64,000 bases of DNA from Bremerella sp. P1 (GTDB lineage Bacteria > Planctomycetota > Planctomycetia > Pirellulales > Pirellulaceae): positions 5,233,814 to 5,297,813 of the forward strand of contig NZ_CP118164.1 in assembly GCF_028748185.1 (NCBI RefSeq), read 5' to 3'. Below, piece after piece: positions 32,865 to 48,485 of the stretch. A program made the position numbers and the translations under genes. The notes beneath the pieces were generated by a model that searched no databases, was not told the origin of the DNA, and saw nothing but the letters and a program-made list of their open reading frames with translations. Each line of letters starts with the position of its first letter. The stretch's first letter is position 1.

Positions 32865-33812
32865 TTGGAATTAAACCAGCGGGCACATGCCCTGGTACAG
32901 CCGATTATTGAAACCCCACGAGAAATCGGAGCGGAACTGGTTCAGCTTGAATGCGGGGCCAAAGTCCTGGATTTGGGGGTGACTGCAGGTCGAGGGGGAT
33001 TGGAAGCAGGCCGTCAGATGGCTGAGATCTGCCTGGCTGGGCTGGGGGAAGTGTCGTTCTCGTTGGGGGATGCCCCGGGCACGCGGACGTTTGTCAACGT
33101 ATGCACCGATCGCCCCGAAATGGCCTGTATTGCTTCGCAGTACGCCGGCTGGCAGATCAAAACCGAGAATTTCTTCGGAATGGGATCGGGGCCGATGCGG
33201 GTAAAAGCCGCCAAAGAGCCCGTCATTCAAGAGCTGAACCTGACCGATGATTACCCCGTTGCGATCGGCATTCTGGAGACGTCTCAGCTTCCGGGAGATG
33301 AAGTTTGTCAGAAAATCGCCGCCGACTGCCATGTGGACCCGAAGAACCTAGTCCTGCTGGTGGCTCGAACAGCCAGCATCGCAGGCCACGTCCAAGTGGT
33401 TGCCCGGAGCGTGGAAACGTGTCTCCACAAGTTGCACGAGCTGAAGTTCGATCTCTCGAAGATCGCCAGTGGCTTCGGGGCTGCCCCGCTGCCGCCGATT
33501 GCCGCCGACGATGTGGTGGGTATCGGCCGTACGAACGATGCCATCTTATACGGTGGCATGGTGACGTTGTGGGTAAACGAAATCTCGGGGCGACTACGCG
33601 AGTTCGGCGAGAAATTGCCCAGCGGAACGTCTTCGATGTACGGGCAGCCGTTTGAAAAGATTCTGCGTGACGCCAAGTTCGACTTCTACCAAATCGACCC
33701 GCTGCTGTTCAGCCCGGCGGAAGTTTGCCTGGTGAGTCTGCAAGATGGCAAATCAACGATCTTTGGCCAGCGGAACCTGGAAGTGCTCGCCAAGTCGTTT
33801 GGGCAAGGTTAA
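32865..33812 (+). CDS. mch: Methenyltetrahydromethanopterin cyclohydrolase
   Basis: A 315-residue protein matching Mch throughout. It starts at TTG 32865 with GAGGAGA upstream. Family segments include GVTAGRGGLEAGRQMAEICLAGLG, FFGMGSGPMRVKAAKEP, VLLVARTASIAGHVQVVARSVETCLHKL and the C-terminal FYQIDPLLFSPAEV. Mch converts methenyl-H4MPT to formyl-H4MPT, a step in formaldehyde oxidation in methylotrophs and planctomycetes. The next gene, a RimK-like ATP-grasp enzyme, is a known companion of mch in such clusters. No other C1 gene lies here. It begins the long same-strand run to 44.5 kb. Confidence 0.95.
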   Translation: MELNQRAHALVQPIIETPREIGAELVQLECGAKVLDLGVTAGRGGLEAGRQMAEICLAGLGEVSFSLGDAPGTRTFVNVCTDRPEMACIASQYAGWQIKTENFFGMGSGPMRVKAAKEPVIQELNLTDDYPVAIGILETSQLPGDEVCQKIAADCHVDPKNLVLLVARTASIAGHVQVVARSVETCLHKLHELKFDLSKIASGFGAAPLPPIAADDVVGIGRTNDAILYGGMVTLWVNEISGRLREFGEKLPSGTSSMYGQPFEKILRDAKFDFYQIDPLLFSPAEVCLVSLQDGKSTIFGQRNLEVLAKSFGQG

Positions 33813-33820
33813 TCGCGGCG

Positions 33821-34765
33821 ATGGATCGAATTGCACGACTACCACGCATCGGCGTGTTGGCCAACGAAGATAGCTGGTATTTCCAGGACCTGCAGCGAGC
33901 GGCGACGGGCAAAGCCAATGTCGAGCGTCTGGAATTCTCGGCTCTGCAGTCCCGTATTGGCGGTGGCGAGTCGATCTCGGCCGATACGATGTTGTCGGAA
34001 AACTTCGACGCGGTAATTGTTCGCTCGATGCCGCCGGGTTCGCTGGAACAGGTCGTGTTTCGGATGGACGCCTTGGCTGGGCTCGAGCGGCAAGGCGTGC
34101 TGATCATCAACCCGCCGAAGTCGATGGAATTGGCGATCGATAAGTACCTCTCTCTTTCCAAACTATCGGCCGCAGGCTATCGAGTCCCCGAGACGCATGT
34201 CTGTCAGACCTGGCAAGATGCGATGGTCGCTTTTGAAGCGATGGGACCCTCGGTGGTGGTGAAGCCGATCTTCGGCGGAGAAGGGCGGGGTATCATGCGG
34301 GTCGAGGATGCCGATCTTGCGCATCGCGTCTTTAAGACCCTGCAGCAGATGGGGCAGATTATTTACCTACAAAGGTTTGTTCCTCACCCTGGCTATGATC
34401 TTCGCGTGTTGGTGCTGGGCGATACTATGTGGGGCATGCGGCGGACCTCGGCCGACAGTTGGCGGACGAACCTCAGTCGAGGTGCCAGCGCCACCCCAGA
34501 GTCGATTCCCGATGAGGTCGCACAGGTGGCACTTCAGGCGGTAAAGACGCTCGATCTGGACATCGCTGGGCTTGACTTTTTGCCGGACGGCGAAGGGGGC
34601 TGGTATTTACTGGAAGCCAACGCTGTCCCAGGATGGAAAGGGCTTTCGGCGGCATGCGACGTGGATGTCGCGGCGAAGCTCGTGGATTACGTGGTGGCCA
34701 AAATTGCCGCAAAACGTCCCTCGAACCCTCTCCCGTCAGGGACCATTGGACCAGAGAGAAGCTAA
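33821..34765 (+). CDS. RimK-like ATP-grasp ligase (H4MPT-associated type)
   Basis: A 314-residue ATP-grasp protein starting at ATG 33821, eight bases after mch. The ATP-binding domain has PSVVVKPIFGGEGRGIMRVED at about 145-165, QRFVPHPGYDLRVLVLGD, and a metal-binding end AGLDFLPDGEGGWYLLEANAVPGW. This branch is close to the ribosomal-S6-modifying RimK family and to MptN-like enzymes that add glutamate to H4MPT or F420. The mch neighbour favours a role in H4MPT synthesis. The last residues (NPLPSGTIGPERS) are encoded within a CCTCTCCC-type palindrome. The stop codon abuts the oleC start. Confidence 0.82.
   Translation: MDRIARLPRIGVLANEDSWYFQDLQRAATGKANVERLEFSALQSRIGGGESISADTMLSENFDAVIVRSMPPGSLEQVVFRMDALAGLERQGVLIINPPKSMELAIDKYLSLSKLSAAGYRVPETHVCQTWQDAMVAFEAMGPSVVVKPIFGGEGRGIMRVEDADLAHRVFKTLQQMGQIIYLQRFVPHPGYDLRVLVLGDTMWGMRRTSADSWRTNLSRGASATPESIPDEVAQVALQAVKTLDLDIAGLDFLPDGEGGWYLLEANAVPGWKGLSAACDVDVAAKLVDYVVAKIAAKRPSNPLPSGTIGPERS
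34726..34745. repeat. CCTCTCCC-type palindrome inside the end of a gene
   Basis: CCCTCTCCC and CAGGGA form a short hairpin inside the 3' end of the ATP-grasp gene. It resembles the intergenic palindrome family, and CCAGAGAGAAG follows, like the tail of other copies. The element seems to have supplied the last residues of the protein. Confidence 0.55.
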
Positions 34766-36454
34766 ATGGCGGATGCCACGATGATATCGACCGTTTTCAA
34801 TGTGGGATTGCTACTGGATGAAGTGGCGACGACCAGGCCCGACGCAACCGCGATTGCCGTTGCTGGAAAGCGAGATGGCCAGGGAAATCGGCAGTACGAT
34901 TCGATCACGTTCGCCAAGCTCGCAGAGGACAGCACGATCATCGCGGCGGGATTGTCGCAGATGGGAGTCGTCCCTGGCACGCGACTGGCACTGATGGTCC
35001 GCCCCGGAATCGATTTTGTTTCGCTCGTATTTGCACTGTTCAAGGTCGGGGCCGTCAGCATCTTGATCGACCCCGGCATGGGGAAGAAGAATGTCCTGTC
35101 CTGTCTCGATCAGGTCAAGCCAGAAGGGTTTGTGGGCATTCCGATTGTCCATGCCGTTCGCAAGCTGTGCGGACGGCGTTACCGCGACGCCAAGCTGAAC
35201 GTGACGGTCGGTCGCACATGGTTCTGGGGAGGTGCGACGCTTGAGCAGCTTCGCCAAACCGATGTCGGGGACTTTCAGCCGTTCGCCGCGACTGCGGATG
35301 ATAAAGCGGCCATCATCTTCACGTCCGGAAGTACGGGGCCTCCCAAGGGTGTTGAGTTCCGGCATGAAGGATTTCGCCGCCAAGTGCAGTTCATTCAAGA
35401 ACGATATGACATTCAACCAGGCGACATCGATGTGCCAGGCTTTCCGCTGTTTGGTTTGTTCAACAGCGCGATGGGGGTGACCTCGGTCATCCCCGATATG
35501 GATTTCAGCCGCCCTGCGACGGTCGATCCGCGAAACATCCTGGAAGCGGTCGCCGATTGGGAAGCGACCCAGTCCTTCGCATCGCCAGCGGTATGGAATG
35601 CCGTCGGCCAGTTCTGCGAACGAGAGAACCTCTGGATGCCGTCTCTCAAACGCGTGCTTTCGGCTGGGGCTCCGGTTCCTCCGCATGTGCTGCGGCGTAT
35701 GAAGAAGGCAGCTCCGAATGCTGAGATGTACACGCCGTACGGAGCAACTGAAGCACTACCTGTGGCTTCGATCTCGGCCAGCGAGGTATTGGGCGAAACG
35801 ATCGAGCGTTCCAATGAAGGGGGCGGTACTTGCGTTGGGTCGCGTTTCGAGGGGATCGATTGGCAGGTGATCGCTATTTCAGACGAAGCCATCGAAACGG
35901 TCGAACAGGTCAATCCGCTTCCACGCGGGGAAATTGGCGAGCTGATTGTCCGCGGTCCTGTGATTACGCGGCGATACGCGACCAGTGACGAGGCGACGCG
36001 TCTTTCCAAGATCTACGATGGGGACGCCGTGTGGCATCGGATGGGAGACGTCGGCTATCTCGATACGCAGGACCGTTTCTGGTTTTGTGGCCGTAAGTCG
36101 CATCGCCTGGAAACGGCCGAAGGCTCGATGTTCACAATTCCGGTCGAATCGATCTTCAATACACACGAAAAAATCTTTCGTAGTGCGTTGGTTGGGATGG
36201 GTGAGCCTGGGGAGCAAATCCCTGTTGTCATCGTTCAGCCGTGGCCTGGGATGTACCCCGATACGCCGCAAGAGATTGACCAACTGATGGACCAACTACG
36301 GGAAATCGGCAATAAAAACGCATTGACCGAGCGAATAGAACATTTCCTGCTGCATCCCAATTTTCCGGTAGATGTACGGCACAATTCGAAGATTTTCCGC
36401 GAAAAATTGAAGGTTTGGGCTGAGGAGCGGCTCGAATCGGTCCTGCCGCATTAA
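34766..36454 (+). CDS. oleC: OleC-type beta-lactone synthetase (acyl-AMP ligase family)
   Basis: A 562-residue ANL-superfamily enzyme. The adenylation motif FTSGSTGPPKG lies at about residues 185-195. YTPYGATEALPVASI (about 327-341) and the C-terminal hinge near GDVGYLDTQDRFWFCGRKSHRLET follow. The sequence fits OleC better than a general acyl-CoA ligase, notably in PVESIFNTHEKIFRSALVG. OleC turns a 2-alkyl-3-hydroxyalkanoic acid into a beta-lactone using ATP, which OleB then decarboxylates to a cis-olefin. Its partner oleD lies one gene downstream, while oleA and oleB are missing here. The start codon touches the stop codon of the ATP-grasp gene, so translation is probably coupled. Confidence 0.87.
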   Translation: MADATMISTVFNVGLLLDEVATTRPDATAIAVAGKRDGQGNRQYDSITFAKLAEDSTIIAAGLSQMGVVPGTRLALMVRPGIDFVSLVFALFKVGAVSILIDPGMGKKNVLSCLDQVKPEGFVGIPIVHAVRKLCGRRYRDAKLNVTVGRTWFWGGATLEQLRQTDVGDFQPFAATADDKAAIIFTSGSTGPPKGVEFRHEGFRRQVQFIQERYDIQPGDIDVPGFPLFGLFNSAMGVTSVIPDMDFSRPATVDPRNILEAVADWEATQSFASPAVWNAVGQFCERENLWMPSLKRVLSAGAPVPPHVLRRMKKAAPNAEMYTPYGATEALPVASISASEVLGETIERSNEGGGTCVGSRFEGIDWQVIAISDEAIETVEQVNPLPRGEIGELIVRGPVITRRYATSDEATRLSKIYDGDAVWHRMGDVGYLDTQDRFWFCGRKSHRLETAEGSMFTIPVESIFNTHEKIFRSALVGMGEPGEQIPVVIVQPWPGMYPDTPQEIDQLMDQLREIGNKNALTERIEHFLLHPNFPVDVRHNSKIFREKLKVWAEERLESVLPH

Positions 36455-36499
36455 ACTACTGCTGACCCCTTGTCTGTCGATCGAAGGCTTTTCCAACCT

Positions 36500-37450
36500 A
36501 TGCATCTCAAGTGCCCTCACTGTTCGACCGTTCTCAATGTAACTAGTCCCGGTGGGACTCAGGTCCAATGTCCTACTTGCCAGGGCCTGTTTGTTGTTCC
36601 CCAGGCGACACCCCAAGTCAGCGCACCGGTGATCACACCGAGGGAGCCCGGCAGTAAACCGCTACGAAAGAAGGCCCAGCCCAAGACTCAGCAGGAAGAA
36701 GGGGCAGAGGACGCCGAAGGGGAAGAAGAACTCGAATCGGGTGGAATCCCGGTCGATCTGATTCTGAAGATCGCCAAAATCGTTGTGCTGCCGATGTTCC
36801 TGGCCGTGGTGCTGTTCTTCGGATTGGTGGCGATGGGCATTCTGGAAATCGGCTCAGGCGATGATGTCGTCGATGAGTCCCCTTACGTGAATGACGGCGT
36901 GGCCAACAGTGGCAACCAGATTCAAGAGGTCATGGAAGCCGCCGAAAAGGGTGATATCTACATCAATTGGGTCCCGGCCAAGAATTCGGCCACCATGGAA
37001 GGCTTCAAGGTAAAGATCAACCACATCGACTGGGGCGAGGTCCGCGGTCGCGACGAGGGAGGCGAACTAGTCACCTCCAATGGTCGGCCTTACATGAACG
37101 TCTATCTAGAGCTGTCAAATCGATCGGACAAGACGTTTGACTTCAAGAGCTGGTATGGGAATCAATTTACTGCGGAAAATGGGGCAATTCGTACGGCCCA
37201 GCTTTCCGACGACGACAAGAACATGTACTATCCCCTCAAGTTTGATGATCTTGCCGACCTGAAATGGTGGACCCCCAGCAAGACGTTCAAGCCTGCGGAA
37301 GAAGGGACCGATGCGATCGTCTTCGACGTGCCAGAAGACTTCGACCCAAGCAAGGTCGAGAATCTGTACCTCGATCTGCCAGGCGAGGCGATTGGCCGAA
37401 GTGGTTCGTACCGGTTCAAGATTCCCAAGTCCATGATTCAGGGCCTCTAA
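36500..37450 (+). CDS. MJ0042-type zinc-ribbon membrane protein
   Basis: A 316-residue protein of unknown function. The first 40 residues form a zinc ribbon, CPHC...CPTC, of the MJ0042 kind (HLKCPHCSTVLNV, VQCPTCQGLFVVPQ). A charged linker of about 50 residues rich in Glu and Gln comes next, then one membrane helix at about 100-120 (ILKIAKIVVLPMFLAVVLFFG). The outer domain of about 190 residues has beta-rich segments such as MNVYLELSNRSDKTFDFKSWYGNQF. It lies between oleC and oleD, which is unusual, and a link to them is only inferred from position. I chose ATG 36500 over an upstream in-frame start. Confidence 0.72.
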   Translation: MHLKCPHCSTVLNVTSPGGTQVQCPTCQGLFVVPQATPQVSAPVITPREPGSKPLRKKAQPKTQQEEGAEDAEGEEELESGGIPVDLILKIAKIVVLPMFLAVVLFFGLVAMGILEIGSGDDVVDESPYVNDGVANSGNQIQEVMEAAEKGDIYINWVPAKNSATMEGFKVKINHIDWGEVRGRDEGGELVTSNGRPYMNVYLELSNRSDKTFDFKSWYGNQFTAENGAIRTAQLSDDDKNMYYPLKFDDLADLKWWTPSKTFKPAEEGTDAIVFDVPEDFDPSKVENLYLDLPGEAIGRSGSYRFKIPKSMIQGL

Positions 37451-37490
37451 ACGCCCCAAGCGACGACAAGATAGGCATCCGGAGCAACAC

Positions 37491-38492
37491 TTGAGCGTGC
37501 TGGTTACCGGCGGAGGCGGATTCCTCGGCCGATATATCGTCGAGCAGCTACTCATGCACGGGGAAACCGTGCGAGTCCTCTCGCGGCAGCGATACCCGGA
37601 ACTCGAAGCACTCCGCGTCGAGTGCATTCAGGGGGATCTTCGCGATCGGGCTGCTGTCGAAGGGGCCGTGAAGGGTTGCGAAGTCGTCTACCATGTGGCC
37701 GCGTTGGCCGGCATCTGGGGACGCTGGGAAGACTACTACGGCATCAATGTCGAAGGCACCCAGAACATTATCGATGCCTGCCTGGCTTGGAATGTTGAGC
37801 GTCTGGTCTACTGCAGCAGTCCCAGCGTGACCTTCAATGGAACCGACCAGAAGGGGGTAGATGAATCGGCCCCATATCCCGAAAAATGGCTGGCCCACTA
37901 TCCCCATTCCAAGGCGATCGCGGAACAGGCAGTGCTTCAAGCGAATCGGCCTGGAGCCCTGGTGACCTGTGCTTTGCGTCCTCATCTCATCTGGGGACCA
38001 CGCGATGGTCACTTGATTCCGCGGCTTATTCAGCGGGCAAAATCGGGAAAGTTGCGGATCGTTGGGGACGGAAAGAACCTGGTCGACATGGTTTTTGTCG
38101 AAAACGCCGCATCTGCCCATATCCAAGCTGCGGGGGCGCTCGCGAACACGCCCGAGAAGGTCGGCGGTAAGGCCTATTTCATTACTCAAGGGGCTCCGGT
38201 TCGTCTGTGGGACTGGATAAACGAGATTCTGGCGATGGAAGGCATTCCCCCGATTCGGAAACGTGTTTCGGCAAACGTTGCCTATTATGCCGGTGCAGCC
38301 ATGGAAACGACCTATAAAATGATCGGTCGAATGCACGAAGAACCACGCATGACTCGGTTCCTTGCCAGGCAACTTGCCACCCATCATTATTTCGATATCT
38401 CCGCTGCTCGACACGACTTGGGCTACTCGCCGAAAGTCTCTACCGAAGAGGGGATGAAGCGTCTGTGCGACGATTTGGCTTCCCGCAGGTGA
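37491..38492 (+). CDS. oleD: OleD-type NAD(P)-dependent dehydrogenase
   Basis: A 333-residue extended short-chain dehydrogenase with a TTG start and GGAG upstream. The nucleotide-binding VTGGGGFLGRYIVEQLL is at the N-terminus. The catalytic Tyr-Lys pair is in YPHSKAIAEQ, and the Ser in VYCSSPSVTF. VRVLSRQRYPELEALRVECIQGDLRD and HVAALAGIWGRWEDYYGINVEGT match OleD. OleD reduces the 2-alkyl-3-ketoacid formed by OleA to the hydroxy acid used by OleC. Steroid-type 3-beta dehydrogenases are the nearest alternative, but the oleC neighbour decides. It leads into the FAS-like genes. Confidence 0.87.
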   Translation: MSVLVTGGGGFLGRYIVEQLLMHGETVRVLSRQRYPELEALRVECIQGDLRDRAAVEGAVKGCEVVYHVAALAGIWGRWEDYYGINVEGTQNIIDACLAWNVERLVYCSSPSVTFNGTDQKGVDESAPYPEKWLAHYPHSKAIAEQAVLQANRPGALVTCALRPHLIWGPRDGHLIPRLIQRAKSGKLRIVGDGKNLVDMVFVENAASAHIQAAGALANTPEKVGGKAYFITQGAPVRLWDWINEILAMEGIPPIRKRVSANVAYYAGAAMETTYKMIGRMHEEPRMTRFLARQLATHHYFDISAARHDLGYSPKVSTEEGMKRLCDDLASRR

Positions 38493-38556
38493 CTTGTCAA
38501 GGTTCCAGGGAATCGGTAGCTTGAACGGTTTCCGTTAAATTGCCGAGGATGGGCAA

Positions 38557-39810
38557 ATGATTGCCACCGCCGAACAACTTCCCGATTCGCAGCGCATTGT
38601 CATTACGGGCATCGGTCTGACCGCGCCTAATGGCAATTCGTATGCCGAGTACCGAGCTGCCCTGCTCGAGGGAAAGAGCGGTGTGCAGAATTACGAGATC
38701 CGCTACGTCGGCGAGACCCTGGCTGGTATCTGCGACTACGAAGCAACCCGTTACCAGAAGAAACGGGAGATCCGCCGCGGAACGCGTGCCGGCAGCATCG
38801 GGATTTACTGTGCCGGCGAAGCGATTGCCGATAGTGGTGTCGACTGGGAAAACACCGACAAAAGCATGGTCGGCGTCTACATCGGCGTCACCGAGCACGG
38901 CAACGTCGAAACAGAAAACGAAGTCTACAACATCAAAGGCTACGACTACGACACCTCGTTCTGGTCGCACCACCACAACCCCCGCACGGTTGCCAATAAC
39001 CCAGCTGGCGAAATTTGCCTGACGATGGGTATTGTCGGCCCGCACTACACGATTGGTGCTGCTTGTGCCGCGGGGAATGCGGGGCTGATCCAGGGTGCCC
39101 AGATGCTGCGTCTGGGGGAATGCGACTTGGCATTGGCCGGTGGCGTGTCGGAAAGTATCCAAACATTTGGGATCTTCGCAGGTTTCAAGAGCCAAGGAGC
39201 CTTGGCCCATCACGAAGACCCTACCAAGGCCTCGCGCCCTTTTGACACCCAGCGAAACGGCATCGTCGTTTCCGAAGGTGGCTGTATTTATACGCTTGAG
39301 CGGTTATCGGATGCGAAAAAACGCGGTGCGAAGATCTACGGCGAACTCGCCGGGTACGCGATGAACACCGACGCGACCGACTTCGTGCTGCCCAACCCCG
39401 AGCGACAAGTACAGTGCATTAACCTGGCTTTAAAGCGAGCTGGGATGAATGTCACGGACATTGATATCGTCAGTACGCATGCCACCGGCACGACGCTCGG
39501 CGATCAACAGGAATGCACGGCGATTCGCGATGTCTTCGGAAAAAGCGAAACAACGTTCGTCAACAATACAAAAAGTTTTATCGGGCACGCGATGGGAGCG
39601 GCTGGGGCTTTGGAACTAGCCGGCAACTTGCCTGCGTTTGAAGATGGCGTTTGTCACGCCACGATCAACGTCGACGAGTTGGATCCTGAATGTGCCATCG
39701 ACGGTTTGGTTTTAAATCAGCCGCGCGAACTCGGAAAAGCTCAGGTCATTCTGAATAACTCGTTCGGAATGCTGGGCATTAACTCAGTAGTAATCATCAA
39801 GAAGCTGTAA
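38557..39810 (+). CDS. Beta-ketoacyl-ACP synthase, FabF-like
   Basis: A 417-residue elongating ketosynthase. The active-site triad is intact: C170 in GAACAAGNAGL, H308 in STHATGTTLGDQQE, and H344 in KSFIGHAMGAAGALE. This Cys-His-His set marks decarboxylating condensation with malonyl-ACP, so it is not a substitute for the Claisen-type OleA. It differs from housekeeping FabF in several places and lies with its own ACP, dehydratase and reductase. This suggests a dedicated chain-building role. No malonyltransferase or ketoreductase gene accompanies it. Confidence 0.9.
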   Translation: MIATAEQLPDSQRIVITGIGLTAPNGNSYAEYRAALLEGKSGVQNYEIRYVGETLAGICDYEATRYQKKREIRRGTRAGSIGIYCAGEAIADSGVDWENTDKSMVGVYIGVTEHGNVETENEVYNIKGYDYDTSFWSHHHNPRTVANNPAGEICLTMGIVGPHYTIGAACAAGNAGLIQGAQMLRLGECDLALAGGVSESIQTFGIFAGFKSQGALAHHEDPTKASRPFDTQRNGIVVSEGGCIYTLERLSDAKKRGAKIYGELAGYAMNTDATDFVLPNPERQVQCINLALKRAGMNVTDIDIVSTHATGTTLGDQQECTAIRDVFGKSETTFVNNTKSFIGHAMGAAGALELAGNLPAFEDGVCHATINVDELDPECAIDGLVLNQPRELGKAQVILNNSFGMLGINSVVIIKKL

Positions 39811-39838
39811 AGCACACGGTTGAAGGAGCCAGATCGGG

Positions 39839-40090
39839 ATGACGCCAGCGGAAATCCGTGAAGAAATTTTGGACATTTTGCGGGACATCGCTCCGGATGA
39901 CGACATCACGGATATCGACGACGATAAGCCCTTTCGCGACCAGCTAGAACTCGACAGCATGGACTTCCTGGACATCGTCATGGAACTCCGTAAGCGTCAC
40001 CGAGTTCAAATTCCGGAAGAAGAATACCCGGAACTGGCATCGATGAGCAGCACGGTTGCTTACCTCGAACCAAAGATGAAAGATCTGTAA
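39839..40090 (+). CDS. Acyl carrier protein
   Basis: An 83-residue acidic helical protein. The phosphopantetheine attachment Ser is S40 in the ELDSMDFLDIVMEL motif. Its length and helix pattern are those of ACP. It lies 28 bases after the ketosynthase gene and likely serves it. The DSMD context differs from the DSLD of housekeeping ACP, fitting a specialised carrier. Confidence 0.92.
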   Translation: MTPAEIREEILDILRDIAPDDDITDIDDDKPFRDQLELDSMDFLDIVMELRKRHRVQIPEEEYPELASMSSTVAYLEPKMKDL

Positions 40091-40104
40091 GTTCGACCAC
40101 CGTT

Positions 40105-40238
40105 CCTTCTCCCTCATCAGGGAGAAGGTGCCCGAAGGGCGGATGAGGGGCGAACCCAATCATCGGTCGATTGATCTCGTCACGCACTAGATAAAACCCC
40201 TCACCCAATCCCTCTCTCCCTTCGCGGACGAGAGAATT
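40105..40238. repeat. Two CCTCTCCC-type palindrome copies in the ACP-CrtI gap
   Basis: CCTTCTCCCT (40105-40114) and AGGGAGAAGG (40119-40128) form a perfect 10-bp stem, followed by GCCCGAAGGGC. A second diverged copy begins with ACCCCTCACCCAATCCCTCTCTCCC near 40195. This is the largest gap (181 bases) in the run of FAS-like genes, and these repeats fill most of it. Confidence 0.7.
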
Positions 40239-40271
40239 CGATTCGGACGCCACAAGGACTTTCTTGTCACG

Positions 40272-41663
40272 ATGTACGACACGATCATTATCGGCGCAGG
40301 CATGTCCGGGCTGGCGGCCGGGATTCGCTTGGCCTACTTCGGTCAGAATGTCTGCATTCTCGAGCGTCACAACACGATTGGTGGGCTGAATTCCTTCTAT
40401 CGCATGGCCGGCCGTGATTTCGATGTCGGCCTGCACGCGGTGACCAACTTCACCAAGAAGGGTGAAAAGAAGGGACCGCTCGGTCGGCTTCTGCGGCAGT
40501 TGCGATTCAAATGGGATGAGTTCGCCTTATGCCCCCAGTTGGGCTCGAAGGTGATGTTTCCGGGCGTTGAGTTGAAGTTCGATAACGACATTGAACTTCT
40601 ACGCAGCGAGATCGCCCAGCGATTTCCGAAGCAGGCCGATAATTTCGATCGCCTGCGTGGGCAGATCATGGACTACGACGACATCACGCCGAACAACTAC
40701 GCAGGCTCGGCTCGCACTCGCTTGTCCGAGATCATCACCGATCCATTGTTGGTCGAGATGCTTCTGTGCCCACTGATGTGGTACGGCAATGCCCGTGAGC
40801 AGGACATGGACTGGGGCCAGTTCTGCATCATGTTCCGCAGCATCTATATGGAAGGCTTCGCCCGTCCGCTCAAAGGGGTGCGGCTGCTGCTGAAGAACCT
40901 GGTCAAGAAATTCCGCGAGCTGGGTGGCGAACTCAAATTACGGACAGGCGTTTCTTCGCTGAAGATCGAAGAAGGGCAGTGCGTTGGGGTGACACTCGAC
41001 GACGGTACCGAATTGATGGGCCGCAAAGTTGTTTCATCCGCCGGTTGGTGGGAAACGATGCGGATGTGCGAGGAAGGCATCAAGCCTCCTGTCGGTCAGC
41101 CAGGCCGATTGAGCTTCGTCGAAACGATCTCGGTCATCAAGAAGCAACCGGTTGAGGTCGGATACGACTCTACGATTGTCTTCTTCAACGACTCGAACAA
41201 GTTTCATTGGGTCAAGCCGGAAGACGAACTGTGCGATGTCCGTACCGGCGTTATTTGCTCGCCGAACAATTTTGACTATCAGGACGGAGCGAACCTGGAC
41301 GAAGGCTACCTCCGTGTTACGGCCCTGGCGAACTACGACCGCTGGGTGAATCTGCCAGAACAGCAGTACCGCTTCGAGAAGAATCGCTGGTACGACCTGA
41401 TCAGCGACAGCGTCGTGCGGTTCATTCCCGAATTTCGCCGGCATGTGGTTGCGGTCGATATGTTCACGCCCAAGACCATTCATCGATACACTTGGCACAA
41501 GAATGGTGCCGTGTATGGCGCCCCTGAGAAGCACCTCGACGGCACCACGCACCTCGATAACCTGTACATTTGCGGAACCGATCAAGGCTACGTCGGGATC
41601 ATTGGTTCCATCATGAGTGGCGTATCGGTCGCCAACCGTTACTGCCTGCAAGACGCTGGCTAA
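40272..41663 (+). CDS. CrtI-like FAD-dependent oxidoreductase, first copy
   Basis: A 463-residue flavoprotein of the phytoene desaturase/carotenoid isomerase type. The FAD-binding [33 protein letters not shown] is at the N-terminus. The C-terminal flavin motif reads [28 protein letters not shown]. No signal peptide is seen. Such enzymes dehydrogenate, saturate or isomerise conjugated double bonds. No carotenoid genes are nearby, and the flanking ACP, dehydratase and enoyl reductase suggest an acyl-chain substrate. The neighbouring second copy is only distantly similar, so the two may have separate tasks. Confidence 0.85.
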
Positions 41664-41745
41664 ACCTCATGCTCAACCCTTTGCACGGCTGGGGCAACTG
41701 CCCTGGCGCAGTCTCCTCGCCTGCGAGGGGACAGGAATAAGAACT

Positions 41746-43197
41746 ATGCCGAAAGACTTTCTGAAAGACACGCAGGACGAGTACGACGTTGTAGTGATCG
41801 GCAGCGGCCTGGCCGGGCTGACCGCCGCCAACACGCTGGCTCGTCAAGGTCGTAGCGTTCTGCTTTGCGAGCAGCACTACAAGCTGGGCGGGATGGCAAC
41901 CTGGTTCAAGCGGCCAGGCGGTCACATCTTCGATATCTCGCTACACGGCTTCCCGATCGGGATGATCAAAAGCTGCAAGCGTTATTGGACTCGCGAAATC
42001 GCCGACTCGATCGTGCAGTTGAAGAACATCCGCTTCGATAACCCGATGTTCTCGCTGTCGACGACCTTCAACCGCGAAGACTTCACGCAGTTGTTGATCC
42101 AAGAGTTCAACGTGCCCGAAGCGACTGTAAAGGAGTTCTTCGACACGGCTCGCAGCATGAACTTCTACGACGATCAGGGGATGACAACGAAAGAACTGTT
42201 CGACAAGTTCTTCCCCGGACGCGAAGATGTCGTGCGGTTGCTGATGGAGCCCATCACGTATGCCAACGGTTCGACCCTGGAAGATCCGGCGATCAGCTAC
42301 GGCATCGTCTTCTCGAACTTCATGAGCAAAGGCGTCTTCACCTTCCAAGGCGGGACCGATCGGCTCATTCAATTGATGCACGAAGACCTGAAGAAGTCAG
42401 GCGTCGACGTGCGGATTAATGTCGATGTCGAGAAGATCAATCTCGAGAACGGCCGAGTTCAGAGCATTGTTGCCAACGGCAAGACGATCAAGTGTAAGTC
42501 GATTGTCTCGAACTCGAACCTGAAGCTGACCATCTTTGATTTGGTTGGCGAGCAGCACTTCGATAAGAAGTTTATCGAAGATGCCAAAGAGGTGCGGCTG
42601 AATAACTCCAGCACCCAGGTCTACATCGCTATGAAACCGGATGAGCAGATTCCCGAGGAAACCGGCGACCTGCTCTTCAGCAGTACGGCTCCGGCGTTCC
42701 GTACCGACCTGCTGCTTAGCCGCGACATTACCAGTCGCACGTACTCGTTCTATTATCCGCACACGCGGCCCGAAGGGCGTCCGCGATCGCTGGTTGTTTC
42801 CAGTACGAATGCTCGGTTTGAAGATTGGGCGAATCTGTCGGAAGACGAGTACAAAGCCAGTAAGGACGATCTCGCCGAGACCACGCTTGATGCGCTTGAA
42901 AAGTACGTTCCCAACGTTCGCGAGCGTATCGACCACGTCGAGGTCTCGACCCCCAAAACCTTCCAGCGGTACACCAAGCATGCCCTGGGCTCAAGCTTCG
43001 GTACGAAGTTTGAAGGTCTGGCTGTGAGCCGGGCTATTCCTGAGCAAGTGCCTGGTTTGTATCACGCCGGTAGCGTGGGCATCATCATGTCAGGTTGGCT
43101 TGGCGCGATTAACTACGGGGTGATCGTCTCGAACGATGTCGACTCGTACCTCATGAAGTCTTCCGCCGGATCGCAGTTGGCCGATAGCACTAAGTAA
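41746..43197 (+). CDS. CrtI-like FAD-dependent oxidoreductase, second copy
   Basis: A 483-residue flavoprotein starting at ATG 41746; an upstream in-frame start would add 43 residues that read through repeat-like DNA. It has the Rossmann motif [39 protein letters not shown] and the C-terminal [29 protein letters not shown]. The middle part contains [21 protein letters not shown], which resembles the substrate domain of carotenoid isomerase and retinol saturase. It pairs with the first copy in the same operon. A saturase or isomerase role on a polyene acyl chain is my inference. Confidence 0.85.
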
Positions 43198-43210
43198 CGC
43201 AGGACACACC

Positions 43211-43642
43211 ATGACGAAGACCGCCATCGAAGACGCCATTCCGCATCGCGGCCCTATGCTGCTGGTCGACGAAGTTGCCGAGCAGTCGGAAGATCACATC
43301 CTCTGCCGCAAGACGTTCACACCGGACGAATACTTCTTTCAAGGTCACTATCCCGACTACCCACTGGTTCCTGGGGTGATCTTGTGCGAAGCGACCATGC
43401 AGGCCGGGGCCATCTTGCTCTCGAAGTTTGTGCAAGACGGGGACGGAGTGCCGGTTGCCACGCGACTGAACGATGTGAAGTTCAAGAAGATGGTACGCCC
43501 TGGCGACACGATCGAAATGAACGTGAAGCTGAACGAACGCATGGCAGACGCGTTCTTTATGACCGGAAAGGTAACCGTTGATGGCAAGCTGGCCATGCGG
43601 TTCAACTTTGCCTGTACTGTAGCGAAGATGGAAAACGCGTAA
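43211..43642 (+). CDS. 3-hydroxyacyl-ACP dehydratase, FabZ/FabA-like
   Basis: A 143-residue hotdog-fold protein. The catalytic His lies in [25 protein letters not shown], where Glu in CEATM is the second catalytic residue. [13 protein letters not shown] opens the fold as in FabZ. It removes water from 3-hydroxyacyl-ACP to give trans-2-enoyl-ACP. It is only two bases from the next gene and 13 from the previous one, so it is part of the same transcript. Confidence 0.9.
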
Positions 43643-43644
43643 CC

Positions 43645-44454
43645 GTGACCGACTTTCTCAAACTTACCGGCAAGAACATCGTCGTCACTGGGGTCGCCAA
43701 TCGCAAAAGCGTTGCCTGGCATATCGCCAAGACCCTGGAAGAAGCTGGGGCCACGGTCATTTACGTGGTCCGCAGCGAGGCCCGTAAGGAGTCGACGGCG
43801 AAGCTGCTAGCAGATCGTCAGGTGCTGGTCTGCGATGTTGAATACCAGGAGCAGATCGATAAGCTCCGCGATGACCTGACCGATCAGGGACTGACGATCC
43901 ATGGCCTGGTCCACTCGATGGCCTTCGCCGATTATTCGGAAGGGATGAAGCCGTTTCACGAAACGACCAAGGCTCAGTTCCTGCAAGCCGTCGACATTTC
44001 CTGCTTCTCGCTGGTAAAGCTATCGAACGCGCTCAAAGACTTGTTCGACGAAGACGCATCAGTCGTGACTGTTTCGATTTCGACAACTACCATGGCCAGC
44101 GAGAACTACGGCTTCATGGCCCCGATCAAAGCGGCTCTCGATTCGTCCCTGGCGTTTTTGACCAAAAGCTTCAGCAGTTTCTCCCGTGTCCGGTTCAACG
44201 CCGTGGGGCCTAGTTTGCTCAAGACTTCGGCTTCAGCGGGTATCCCTGGCTATGTCGACGCGTATCTCTTTGCTGAGAAGGTCATTCCCCGCAAGAGTGC
44301 TGTCACGACGCAGGAAGCAGCTGACGTTGCCGTCTTCCTGTTGAGTCCTCGCTCGAGCGGTATCCAGGCCCAGAACATAGCCGTGGACGCCGGGATGAGC
44401 ATCAACTACTTCGACAAAGACATCATCGCTGGCGTTCTCAAGCACGATTCTTAA
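43645..44454 (+). CDS. Enoyl-ACP reductase, FabI-like SDR
   Basis: A 269-residue short-chain dehydrogenase with a GTG start two bases after the dehydratase gene. The N-terminus ([35 protein letters not shown]) and HSMAFADY are FabI-like. The catalytic Tyr-x6-Lys pattern is seen in [16 protein letters not shown], where the spacing of six residues is that of enoyl reductase rather than ketoreductase (Tyr-x3-Lys). It would saturate trans-2-enoyl-ACP with NAD(P)H. It closes the gene run; no clear terminator follows. Confidence 0.88.
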
Positions 44455-44999: not shown

Positions 45000-47900
45000 A
45001 TGCGGTTCAAACGCCCCAAGTTTCAAGCTTCTCTCGGGGAACAACTGGAAGATCGCAGTATGTTGAGTGGAACTCCGCTGGACTTGGATTTGTCAGCGGT
45101 TCCCGCGCAGACGGTGTTCGCCGGCGAGACACTGAGCTTTAACCTCGGTGAACTTGGCGCTACCGTCAGCGAAGGGGAAGATGGGCCAAGGACGGTCATG
45201 TATCAGCTCGACCCCGATGGCGACGAGCGACCAGAGGGAATGTCGATGACATTCTCTGGCGATTTCCAGTGGACCCCCACTGCCGAACAAGAAGGTCTTT
45301 ATAGCGTGAAGATCATTGCCGTCGAGAACGGCGTGCCTTCTAGCGCTGATGTCGAAGAACTGATGATCGACGTTCGTGTCGGTCGCCCGGTTGTCGACCT
45401 CAACGGTGAAGACCAGGAAGGCATCGATTACGATGCCGTCTTTCAAGTAGGTCACGGGGCAGTCAGTGTCGTGGATAGCGACTTGACAGTCTCGGACGAA
45501 AACGACGACATGCTGCAATCGGCGAAGGTCACCCTGACCAACCCGATGGATGGCGCCGAGGAGTCCCTCTCCATCGACGTGGAAGGGACCAATATCAGTG
45601 TGGAATATGCCGATGGCTCGATCATCTTGTCGGGTGAAGATACCGCCGAGAACTATGCCAACGTGCTGAAGACACTGACGTACAACAATACCAGCGAAGA
45701 TGCTGACCCGACCTCTCGGTTAGTTGAAATCACCGTGAGCGACGGCGAATACGAGAGTGAAGTGGCTACCAGCACCATTGCTGTTAACCACGCACCAGAC
45801 TTGCTGCCGATCGCGGGTCAGACGGTTGAGATTGGTCAAACTGAAGAGTTTGTGATCTCGGCCACCGACAAGAACGAGAGCGACGAAATCTACATGTTGC
45901 TCGATGTGGAAACGCCGGAATACGTAACCCTGACTCAGGAAGCGGGTTCGCGGGAAGCGACGCTTTCGATCGCTCCTGGCGATGGTGTCGAACCTGGTGA
46001 ATACACCATCCGTATTCTCGCGGTCGATCAGTATGGACTGGCTGATGCTCAGTACTTCACCCTAAGCGTTTCGGAAGCCGCCAACACTGCGCCTACGATC
46101 AGCCCGGTTGAAGATCAAAGTATTGATCAAGACACCGCGACCGAGCCATTGGCCTTCACCATCGGTGATGCCGAAATGGCTCCAGAAGACCTGATGGTAT
46201 CGGTCGAGTCGGACAACGAAGCGTTGGTGGATGCTGCCGCGATCGTCATGACAGGTACCGGTGCCGATCAGGAGTTGGTCATCACGCCGCTGGCCGGTAT
46301 GACTGGTTCGGCCAACATCACCATCAGCGTGAGCGATGGGGAAATGACGACGACCGAATCGTTTCTGCTGACCGTCAATGAAGTGGTCGCTGAGAATTCG
46401 GCTCCAACCGTTTCGCCGGTTGAGGACATGGCGATTGACGAAGATTCAGCTACCGATCCGTTGACCTTCACCGTGAGTGACGCGGAAACGGCAGTCGAAG
46501 ACCTGGTCGTCAGCGTGGAATCGGACAACCCGGCGTTGGTCGATGCGGCTGGTATTCTCGTTGCCGGTGACGGTGCCGATAAGTCCTTGGTCATCACGCC
46601 GCTGTCTGGTGCGACCGGTTCGGCTACCATCACCATTAGCGTTTCCGATGGTGAGCTGACGACCACCGAGTCGTTCGTTCTGACTGTCAACGAAGTGATT
46701 GCTGGTAACTCGGTTCCCACGGTGACTGCGGTTGAAGATCAGACGATCGATCAAGACTCGGCAACCGTGCCACTGGCCTTCGCGATCGGTGATGCTGAAA
46801 CGGCCGTTGAAGATCTGGCGGTCAGCGTGGAGTCGGACAACCCTGCGTTGGTCGATGCCGCTGGTATCATCGTCGCCGGTGACGGTGCCGATAAGACGTT
46901 GATTGTCACTCCGCTGGCAGGTGCTTTTGGCACAGCCAACATTACCATCAGCGTGAGCGACGGCGAGGACACTGCAACCGAGTCTTTCGTGCTGACGGTA
47001 ACCGAACTGGTGGGGGAGAATACTGCCCCGACGATCAGCGCGGTCGAGGACCAGGTGATCGACCAGGATTCGGCGACTGCCCCGCTCGAGTTTTCCGTTT
47101 CCGATGCTGAGTCGGCCGCGGAAGATCTCGTTGTCAGTGTTGAATCGGACAACCCAGCACTGGTGGATGCCGCAGGTATCATCGTGGCCGGTGACGGTGC
47201 CGACAAGACTTTGATTGTCACGCCGCTGTCTGGTGCGACCGGTTCGGCCAACATCACCATCAGTGTGACTGACGGTGAAGAAACGACGACCGAATCGTTT
47301 CTGCTGACGGTGAACGAAGTAGTTGCCGGTCCAACGGCTGAAGCGGATAGCTTCGCTACCGACGCCAACACGCCAATGGCGATCGAAGCCGCTGGTGTCC
47401 TGGCGAATGACCTGGGTGATGCTCTGGTTGTCTCCGAGGTCAACAGCGATGCAGCCAACGTCGGTGCGGCTATCGAACTGGCTTCCGGTGCGACGATTGT
47501 TATCAACGCCGACGGTAGCCTGAGCTTCGATCCGGTTGGCAAGTACGATGGTTTGGCCGAAGGTGAATCGGCAACGGAAACCGTCTCGTACACTACCTCG
47601 GATTCGGTTGCGGCGATGGCTTCCGCAGACATCGAGATCACCGTTAATGGTGTGAATGATGCACCGGTAGCGGAAGACGATGCCTTCGCGACCGAATCGG
47701 ATACCGCACTGACGTTGACCGTGGCTGGTGTTCTGATGAACGACAGCGACGTCGACAACGGCGATACGATGACCGTTTCGGCGGTCAATGGTGAAGCGGC
47801 AAACGTCGGTCAGCCAGTCGCACTGGATGGTGGCGGCATGTTGACGCTTAACGCCGATGGAAGCATGACCTTCGACCCCAATGGTGAGTTTGAAGACCTG

Positions 47901-48485
47901 GCTGAACCAGCCACGATTCAGTTCGGCTACACTGTTTCCGATGCTCTGGGTTTGACGGCGGATGCGACCGTGACCATCACCATTTCTGCTCCAAGTGGTG
48001 TGGAAAACGAGAATGCGGCACCGATCAATTCGGTGCCAGGCGAGCAGTCGACTGACTCGGCCACGCCGATCGTCTTCGACGAAGCCAACGGTAACGCTAT
48101 CTCGGTTTCCGATCCGGATGCGGCTGATGCCATGGTCCAGGTGACCATCAGCGTCGATAGTGGTGTGCTGACGCTTTCCAACGGTTTCGAGAGTGACCGT
48201 CACAAGCTACTCGGCTCGATCGATCAAATCAACTCGCTGCTGACCGGCCTGGTTTACACGCCAGATTCGGCCTTCGAGGGTAGTGCGACTTTGACGATCG
48301 TGACCGACGACCTGGGCAACACCGGCTTCGGTGGTGCGAAGGCCGACGCCGATAGCATCCTGATCGCGGTTTCTGCCGCAGCGGTCAGCGGTGTAGACGG
48401 TCAGCCAGAAGGTGAAGGTATCGACCTGATCGCCGAGGATGACGACGAAGTCGACGACCTCTTCAATCCTTGTCACATGGCGTAG
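45000..48485 (+). CDS. Large repeat-containing surface protein with LEDR-type N-terminus
   Basis: A 1161-residue secreted or surface protein. A basic N-terminus is followed by LGEQLEDRSMLSG, close to the LE-x-R-x-LLS motif found at the start of many planctomycete extracellular proteins. Cadherin-like and He_PIG-like modules (about 30-360) come first. Four tandem modules of exactly 104 residues (about 362-777) follow. Two bacterial Ig/VCBS-like modules carry ANDLGDALV and NDSDVDNGDTM, and a final module comes before an acidic tail. It contains almost no cysteine. It probably adheres or forms the cell coat. GGAG sits seven bases upstream of the start. No sortase or dockerin signal is seen. Confidence 0.82.
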   Translation: MRFKRPKFQASLGEQLEDRSMLSGTPLDLDLSAVPAQTVFAGETLSFNLGELGATVSEGEDGPRTVMYQLDPDGDERPEGMSMTFSGDFQWTPTAEQEGLYSVKIIAVENGVPSSADVEELMIDVRVGRPVVDLNGEDQEGIDYDAVFQVGHGAVSVVDSDLTVSDENDDMLQSAKVTLTNPMDGAEESLSIDVEGTNISVEYADGSIILSGEDTAENYANVLKTLTYNNTSEDADPTSRLVEITVSDGEYESEVATSTIAVNHAPDLLPIAGQTVEIGQTEEFVISATDKNESDEIYMLLDVETPEYVTLTQEAGSREATLSIAPGDGVEPGEYTIRILAVDQYGLADAQYFTLSVSEAANTAPTISPVEDQSIDQDTATEPLAFTIGDAEMAPEDLMVSVESDNEALVDAAAIVMTGTGADQELVITPLAGMTGSANITISVSDGEMTTTESFLLTVNEVVAENSAPTVSPVEDMAIDEDSATDPLTFTVSDAETAVEDLVVSVESDNPALVDAAGILVAGDGADKSLVITPLSGATGSATITISVSDGELTTTESFVLTVNEVIAGNSVPTVTAVEDQTIDQDSATVPLAFAIGDAETAVEDLAVSVESDNPALVDAAGIIVAGDGADKTLIVTPLAGAFGTANITISVSDGEDTATESFVLTVTELVGENTAPTISAVEDQVIDQDSATAPLEFSVSDAESAAEDLVVSVESDNPALVDAAGIIVAGDGADKTLIVTPLSGATGSANITISVTDGEETTTESFLLTVNEVVAGPTAEADSFATDANTPMAIEAAGVLANDLGDALVVSEVNSDAANVGAAIELASGATIVINADGSLSFDPVGKYDGLAEGESATETVSYTTSDSVAAMASADIEITVNGVNDAPVAEDDAFATESDTALTLTVAGVLMNDSDVDNGDTMTVSAVNGEAANVGQPVALDGGGMLTLNADGSMTFDPNGEFEDLAEPATIQFGYTVSDALGLTADATVTITISAPSGVENENAAPINSVPGEQSTDSATPIVFDEANGNAISVSDPDAADAMVQVTISVDSGVLTLSNGFESDRHKLLGSIDQINSLLTGLVYTPDSAFEGSATLTIVTDDLGNTGFGGAKADADSILIAVSAAAVSGVDGQPEGEGIDLIAEDDDEVDDLFNPCHMA
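46083..47330 (+). repeat. Four 312-bp in-frame tandem repeats
   Basis: Units begin at 46083, 46395, 46707 and 47019, each 312 bases (104 codons). They start with N-x-x-P-T and a VED-x-x-ID core, and end before the next NEVVA/NEVIA-like linker. Near-identical blocks (VSVESDNPALVDAAGI, AGDGADK) show recent expansion or gene conversion. Confidence 0.92.

Follow-up and report, generated by a model that had tools for sequence, protein, structure and literature searches.

A window of 64,000 nucleotides from the planctomycete Bremerella sp. P1 (contig NZ_CP118164.1, forward strand, positions 5,233,814 to 5,297,813) was analysed, and a nine-gene cluster at window positions 34766-44454, which holds oleC and oleD of the Ole hydrocarbon pathway, was followed into related genomes. 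Six of the nine genes encode a ketosynthase (KS), an acyl carrier protein (ACP), two CrtI-like flavoproteins (Crt1 and Crt2), a FabZ-type dehydratase and a FabI-like reductase. This cassette (KS-ACP-Crt1-Crt2-FabZ-FabI) is probably a dedicated type II fatty acid synthesis (FASII) system that feeds a polyunsaturated chain to OleA, in place of the Pfa synthase of polyunsaturated fatty acids (PUFA). In the genomes sampled, the cassette was co-inherited with OleA, OleB and OleC and was mutually exclusive with PfaD, the marker of Pfa synthases. The product, the substrate and the order of reactions proposed below for the cassette are predicted from sequence.

Distribution and gene order of the cassette

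Marker proteins were sought in 149 genomes from across the phylum, with E-value thresholds of 1e-30 or below for Crt2, 1e-70 for OleC, 1e-40 for OleA and for Crt1, and 1e-20 for OleB. PfaD was called by the curated cut-off of TIGR02814. Crt2 was found in 27 of the 149 genomes including the home genome, at 54-100% identity and with all E values under 1e-160; genome G123, which is PfaD-positive and has a 26% match to Crt2, was left out of the 27. OleA, OleB, OleC and Crt1 were each present in 27/27 Crt2-positive genomes, and the cassette was found in none of the 94 OleC-negative genomes. Sample totals were 55 genomes for OleC, 53 for OleA and 27 for PfaD over its cut-off. None of the 27 cassette genomes, the home genome included, has PfaD; 26 of the 27 PfaD genomes carry OleC and the remaining one (G072) carries OleA. 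Of the 55 OleC-positive genomes, 27 hold the cassette, 26 hold PfaD, two (G076, G141) hold neither and none holds both; a further genome (G003) has OleA but lacks OleC, the cassette and PfaD. No family has both feeders: the cassette occurs in nine and PfaD in 17. Fisher tests of co-occurrence and exclusion gave p values of about 1e-13 to 1e-15, kinship being ignored. PfaD itself was located within 25 kb of ole genes in 12 of 23 PfaD genomes checked (the 27 less G065, G071, G079 and G123). Because the cassette and PfaD were never found together in this sample, a polyunsaturated chain feeding Ole is the most economical reading. The joint presence in 27/27 and the exclusion of PfaD give good support to the original prediction, made from the window alone, of an unusual, probably polyunsaturated acyl chain that feeds the Ole route.

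That prediction was to be given up if the FAS-like half proved to be conserved without oleC/oleD in most relatives. Checked for OleC it stood, with OleC and OleA in all 27 genomes and OleC in 47 of 50 named Crt2-positive genomes (L067-L111 with L122, L127, L133, L137 and L140, from the best 80 loci). These loci came from a scan of named genomes with Crt2, which yielded at least 565 relatives; the best 80 bear planctomycete names, with one exception titled 'bacterium'. Cultured planctomycetes in which the scan found Crt2 include Rhodopirellula rubra, Neorhodopirellula pilleata and Bythopirellula polymerisocia. A plasmid search with Crt2 gave no match.

The OleA tree was built from 51 proteins; G003 and G043, the latter a close relative of G015 and G083, were left out. 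One branch (100/100) has on one side the 27 cassette OleA proteins together with that of the PfaD genome G005, and on the other 22 from PfaD genomes and one from a genome with neither feeder. OleA clades match feeder type, G005 excepted, and OleA therefore tracks its feeder.

Neighbourhoods of Crt2 were fetched and scanned in the 26 relatives and in the weak match G123. The cassette was complete and in the same order in 12 of the 26 relatives' loci, several others being cut by contig ends; an order kept complete in so many loci is beyond chance. All seven genomes of family f24 (L046, L049 and L053-L057) carry on one strand oleA-oleB-oleC-oleD-regulator-KS-ACP-Crt1-Crt2-FabZ-FabI, the end genes of L046 having been placed from genome-wide OleA and OleB searches. 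In L048 (family f20) the oleABCD genes adjoin the cassette and point the other way, and L058 (family f29) has the order KS-ACP-Crt1-Crt2-FabG-FabZ-FabI-oleA-oleB-oleC. FabG was found beside Crt2 in six of the 27 fetched loci (L043, L045, L050, L052, L058 and L061), between Crt2 and FabZ wherever the contig holds both, so that the elongation cycle is complete in those six loci. Crt1 was within 5 kb of Crt2 in 18 of 27 genomes, and Crt2 had oleC or oleA no more than 25 kb away in 14 of 27, where the random expectation is about 1% per gene in a 5 Mb genome. Among the best 80 of at least 565 named loci, many on short contigs, Crt1 was present in 42, FabZ in 53, FabI in 40, KS in 34, oleD in 23, including three weak matches (27-29%), and oleC in 5.

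A MarR/ArsR-like helix-turn-helix regulator was seen in nine of the 27 fetched loci (for example L053 5571-6173), and between oleD and KS in the seven loci with oleD in place. It is a candidate switch for the operon.

Genes of the window and their proteins

The home genome (G000) is a single planctomycete contig of 6.96 Mb, and window positions are used here for the cassette genes. All nine open reading frames (ORFs) are on the + strand. Scores are in bits.

34766..36454, +, oleC, beta-lactone synthetase-like AMP ligase; NF006754 683.6, cut-off 478
36470..37450, +, zinc-ribbon protein; Pfam Zn_ribbon_4 22.3, under cut-off
37491..38492, +, oleD, 2-alkyl-3-oxoalkanoate reductase-like short-chain dehydrogenase/reductase; NF042423 426.9 and NF042422 374.9, both under cut-off 580
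38557..39810, +, KS, dedicated FabF-like ketosynthase; TIGR03150 311.4, under cut-off
39839..40090, +, ACP, dedicated acyl carrier protein; PF00550 35.4, attachment site Ser40 in an LDSM motif
40272..41663, +, Crt1, CrtI-like flavoprotein 1; best NCBIfam model TIGR02730, 94.5
41746..43197 (ORF opening at 41617), +, Crt2, CrtI-like flavoprotein 2; TIGR02730 109.3
43211..43642, +, FabZ-type dehydratase; NF000582 114.1, over cut-off 113, Glu in the active-site motif
43645..44454, +, FabI-like enoyl-ACP reductase; NF005615 180.6, under cut-off 391, Tyr155-x6-Lys

Crt2 probably starts at 41746 rather than at the first possible position, 41617, because most orthologues start there. Intergenic gaps calculated from ORF coordinates are 2-82 bp, except for the 181 bp between ACP and Crt1. 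The OleC and OleD equivalog models were matched over nearly their full length with scores under their cut-offs; for OleC, the olefin beta-lactone synthetase model NF045786 gave 577 bits (cut-off 900), and the ATP-binding motif TSGSTGPPKG is found at residue 186. The residues named in the original prediction (C170, H308 and H344 of KS, S40 of ACP, and Y155-x6-K of FabI) were confirmed.

All nine ORFs of the predicted set are in place, and the zinc-ribbon gene falls outside its conserved part. Such a gene was found in one of the 27 fetched loci (L036) and in two of the 80 named loci (L067 and L095), many of which are short. It was rejected as part of the pathway since very few other loci carry it, and its product is probably lineage-specific and not a pathway enzyme. 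Directly upstream, at 32865-34765 and ending at the start of oleC, are the tetrahydromethanopterin genes mch and an MptN-like ATP-grasp ligase. The same pair was seen upstream of oleC in four of the best 80 named loci. Both were rejected as members of the set, being tetrahydromethanopterin genes by family that adjoin the cassette in some relatives only. Downstream of the cassette, at 45000-48485, a protein of 1161 residues with Big_9 (immunoglobulin-like) and cadherin-like repeats is encoded.

OleA and OleB, for which the full genome remained to be searched, were both found in the home genome. The OleA thiolase (NF006720 444.5 bits, cut-off 285) is encoded at G000:C1:5448148-5449191, some 170 kb away from the cassette; its best PDB matches are 3fk5, 3row and 3s21, which we take to be Xanthomonas OleA. 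An OleB-like hydrolase at G000:C1:6847621-6848487 shares 60% identity with the L067 OleB-like protein and scores under the cut-offs of haloalkane dehalogenase models. With OleC and OleD in the window, all four Ole proteins are therefore present, as judged by sequence.

KS residues C170, H308, K339 and H344, which include the Cys-His-His triad, were invariant in 20 aligned rows. The gate loop, which in FabF reads GFGGTN or similar, is GMLGIN in the window KS and GM(L/V/I/F)GIN in 48 of 49 KS proteins of more than 60% identity (the L120 row is a fragment of 126 residues). This change could reflect an unusual acyl chain. Among 71 FabZ hits from all loci, anammox loci included, the active-site motif had Glu in 65, Asp in none and neither pattern in six. 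Asp in this place marks FabA; the window FabZ has Glu, and so lacks the signature of a FabA-type dehydratase/isomerase. Tyr-x6-Lys was present in 52 of 52 FabI hits taken.

The FabZ genes of five of the seven f24 genomes contain an in-frame insert of about 200-300 codons, with the reading frame open throughout (L049 7587-8681; L053 10846-12045; L054 13774-14928; L055 8076-9158; L057 10666-12081); those of L056 and L046, from the same family, have none. The L053 insert, the only one scanned, matched a transposase associated with repetitive extragenic palindromes (REP), of the IS200-like Y1 type (PF01797, 30.6 bits, over cut-off 23), and gave 68.3 bits to NF047646, under the cut-off of 80. The inserts of L049, L054, L055 and L057 resemble it by eye.

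Carotenoid isomerase (CrtISO) is a flavoprotein that works with reduced flavin and alters the geometry of double bonds with no net oxidation. Its model, TIGR02730, was the best profile for both Crt1 and Crt2, at 94.5 and 109.3 bits respectively against a cut-off of 586.9. TIGR02734 gave 54.5 and 91.3 bits (cut-off 238.1), and neither flavoprotein reached the curated cut-offs of the carotenoid CrtI and CrtISO families. Both thus share with these enzymes the FAD-binding fold and the best profile family, and differ from them in scoring far under the cut-offs and in having ACP-based enzymes, not carotenoid genes, as neighbours. Crt2 identity was 53-68% among 17 aligned orthologues. The structural model of Crt1 (predicted local distance difference test score, pLDDT, 88.8) was nearest to phytoene desaturase 4dgk and gamma-carotene desaturase 4rep, and that of Crt2 (pLDDT 85.5) was nearest to 4rep. 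In the tree, Crt2 formed one clade (100/100), Crt1 another (90/89) and anammox CrtI a third (100/99); the branching order of the three is unsure because the tree has long branches. In two f2 genomes (L177 10523-11740 and L178 10998-12209) Crt1 adjoins a divergent KS (27-28% identity) and not the cassette KS.

Proposed chemistry and its alternatives

The acyl chain would be built on the cassette's own ACP and then handed to OleA, after which two such chains would be joined head to head by OleA, OleD, OleC and OleB, giving a long polyene hydrocarbon such as C31:9. In each cycle KS would extend the chain, and a ketoreductase and FabZ would yield trans-2-enoyl-ACP; the ketoreductase would be FabG, beside the cassette in the six loci given above and otherwise presumably elsewhere in the genome. 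Three fates of the trans-2-enoyl group are envisaged. FabI would reduce it, one flavoprotein would convert it to cis-2, and the other would convert it to cis-3, in the manner of the reduced-flavin carotenoid isomerase. C31:9 has been predicted to arise from two 16:4 n-3 chains, and Pfa dehydratases have been proposed to carry out trans-2 to cis-2 and trans-2 to cis-3 isomerisation, in passages of one paper (PMC4882568). By chain arithmetic, 16:4 n-3 built on an acetyl primer requires the series reduce, cis-3, cis-2, reduce, cis-3, cis-2, reduce, and all three fates are also required from either of the other starting phases. A methylene-interrupted polyene that grows by two carbons per round calls for these three fates in turn. 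Since three enoyl fates are required, and FabI and two flavoproteins with an isomerase profile are at hand, FabI, Crt1 and Crt2 are proposed as the deciding enzymes. The match of three fates to three enzymes is suggestive, not proof. We tentatively propose, at somewhat less than even confidence, a type II system that makes methylene-interrupted PUFA with neither oxygen-dependent desaturases nor Pfa, in which the CrtISO-like pair may act as position-specific enoyl-ACP isomerases alternating with FabI.

Several observations weigh against these proposals. In nine of the 27 genomes Crt1 and Crt2 were on different contigs or more than 5 kb apart, and 13 of the 27 had neither oleC nor oleA inside 25 kb of Crt2, some contigs being short in both cases. 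Three of the 50 named Crt2-positive genomes gave no OleC match, one of which (L122) has an oleD match in front of its KS. G123 holds PfaD plus a weak (26%) Crt2-like gene, and the OleA of G005, a PfaD genome, is a long branch among the cassette OleA proteins. The OleA tree needs just two feeder changes; with so few independent changes, the exclusion statistics describe a strong pattern and not 55 independent trials. For the isomerase step in particular, the folds nearest to both models are desaturases, not isomerases, and the isomerase profile scores are far under the cut-off. The loose linkage in 13 genomes and the two feeder changes would suit an explanation in which Ole and the cassette are separate pathways, the cassette making some other polyene or a membrane lipid and co-occurring with Ole by shared descent only. 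This is unlikely in view of the one-strand clusters with four ole genes in 7/7 f24 genomes, the close neighbourhood in f20 and f29, the joint presence in 27/27 with the cassette in 0/94 OleC-negative genomes, and the exclusion of the other Ole feeder. An end product other than an olefin, either a beta-lactone or a ketone, is a very unlikely alternative. It would accord with the position of OleB outside the window and with the formation of beta-lactones by OleA, OleC and OleD, described in part of PMC7064751, but an OleB-like hydrolase is present in 27/27 cassette genomes.

The feeder role would be retained if the CrtI-like pair were acyl-ACP desaturases that insert double bonds oxidatively, as in the proposal of Rattray et al. 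for anammox bacteria and Desulfotalea psychrophila. This is less likely than not but deserves serious thought. It agrees with the nearest solved folds, which are carotenoid and phytoene desaturases, and with a passage of PMC2649909 that proposed FASII and phytoene-dehydrogenase-like genes as an anaerobic PUFA route; set against it are the best profile of Crt1 and Crt2, which is carotenoid isomerase, and the consideration that a ready-made chain would presumably not require a dedicated KS, FabZ and FabI. The original prediction had also drawn a parallel to ladderane lipids, which holds by analogy of parts (FASII and CrtI-like genes) and fails by orthology (CrtI about 24% and KS about 30% identical). 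Anammox-like genomes do hold ACP-FabZ-KS-KS-CrtI clusters with the same kind of parts, and the cassette might on that ground make a ladderane-like or otherwise cyclised chain later joined by Ole. We regard this as highly improbable. Anammox CrtI is about 24% and KS 28-31% identical to the window proteins and the CrtI proteins form their own clade, on which grounds the cassette was rejected as an anammox ladderane orthologue; no radical S-adenosylmethionine (SAM) gene was found in the window cassette with Pfam and NCBIfam; none of the 55 OleC-positive genomes belongs to the anammox-like family f43; and the exclusion of PfaD points to an ordinary linear polyene. We infer that f43 is the anammox family from a protein of about 820 residues in one or two copies and a Kuenenia-like cluster order (PMC4790861). 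PF18582 (hydrazine synthase alpha domain) is an unsafe anammox marker, since 76 of the 392 planctomycete genomes had matches over its cut-off, as many as 12 in one genome. Outside f43, the PfaD-positive G123 has a CrtI-KS-KS-CrtI cluster (L062 1438-6697) with 24-30% identity to the window genes, and its CrtI (the one in the tree) groups with anammox CrtI (99/98).

Relation to known systems and significance

The home genome resembles known OleABCD systems in carrying all four proteins, and differs in that here the ole genes travel with a dedicated type II cassette, in place of a supply of ordinary fatty acids or Pfa products. As in the Pfa and Ole systems of Shewanella and Geobacter, a maker of polyunsaturated chains would be co-inherited with ole genes and is often near them; unlike those systems, the cassette consists of stand-alone type II proteins and two flavoproteins, and PfaD is absent. 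Co-expression of Shewanella pfa and oleA in E. coli yielded a 31:8 ketone according to part of PMC6463001, which is experimental support for Pfa as a feeder of OleA. That Ole is supplied by Pfa-like synthases in planctomycetes and Deltaproteobacteria was suggested in a passage of Shulse and Allen (2011; PMC3098273). Excerpts of two further papers report oleC in planctomycete metagenome-assembled genomes (PMC10176705, with no mention of feeder genes in the excerpts) and ole genes in Planctomycetes (PMC7158056).

The general idea of the present work was anticipated by Rattray (2009; PMC2649909), where, in the passages concerned, FASII and phytoene-dehydrogenase-like genes of Kuenenia and Desulfotalea psychrophila were linked to PUFA synthesis, C31:8 and C31:9 were found in D. 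psychrophila, which was reported to be without a PUFA polyketide synthase, and planctomycetes were stated to make C31:9. Those clusters share with the window the pairing of FASII and CrtI-like genes; the window cassette differs from the anammox cluster in having no radical SAM gene, in sitting with ole genes, and in that the CrtI and KS proteins are not orthologues. Two Kuenenia homologues gave no lycopene formation and the pathway was left unsolved, according to part of Javidpour (2016; PMC4790861). Among the open-licence papers listed in literature searches, none described such a cassette next to planctomycete ole genes. Judged by those listed papers, the union of the cassette with oleABCD, its full co-occurrence with Ole in the sample, the exclusion of PfaD and the three-fate mechanism are new.

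Desaturases and type I Pfa synthases are, to our knowledge, the known sources of polyunsaturated chains. If the present reading is true, the cassette would be a modular type II third route, which would explain how Pfa-free planctomycetes could supply Ole, and should the flavoproteins prove to be enoyl-ACP isomerases, they would represent new chemistry. That the cassette and PfaD exclude one another makes the 2009 proposal a directly testable claim. Such a route would also offer a small, separable enzyme set for the study of double-bond position and geometry, and a relative of the still unsolved ladderane clusters that is tractable because its hosts can be grown as pure cultures.

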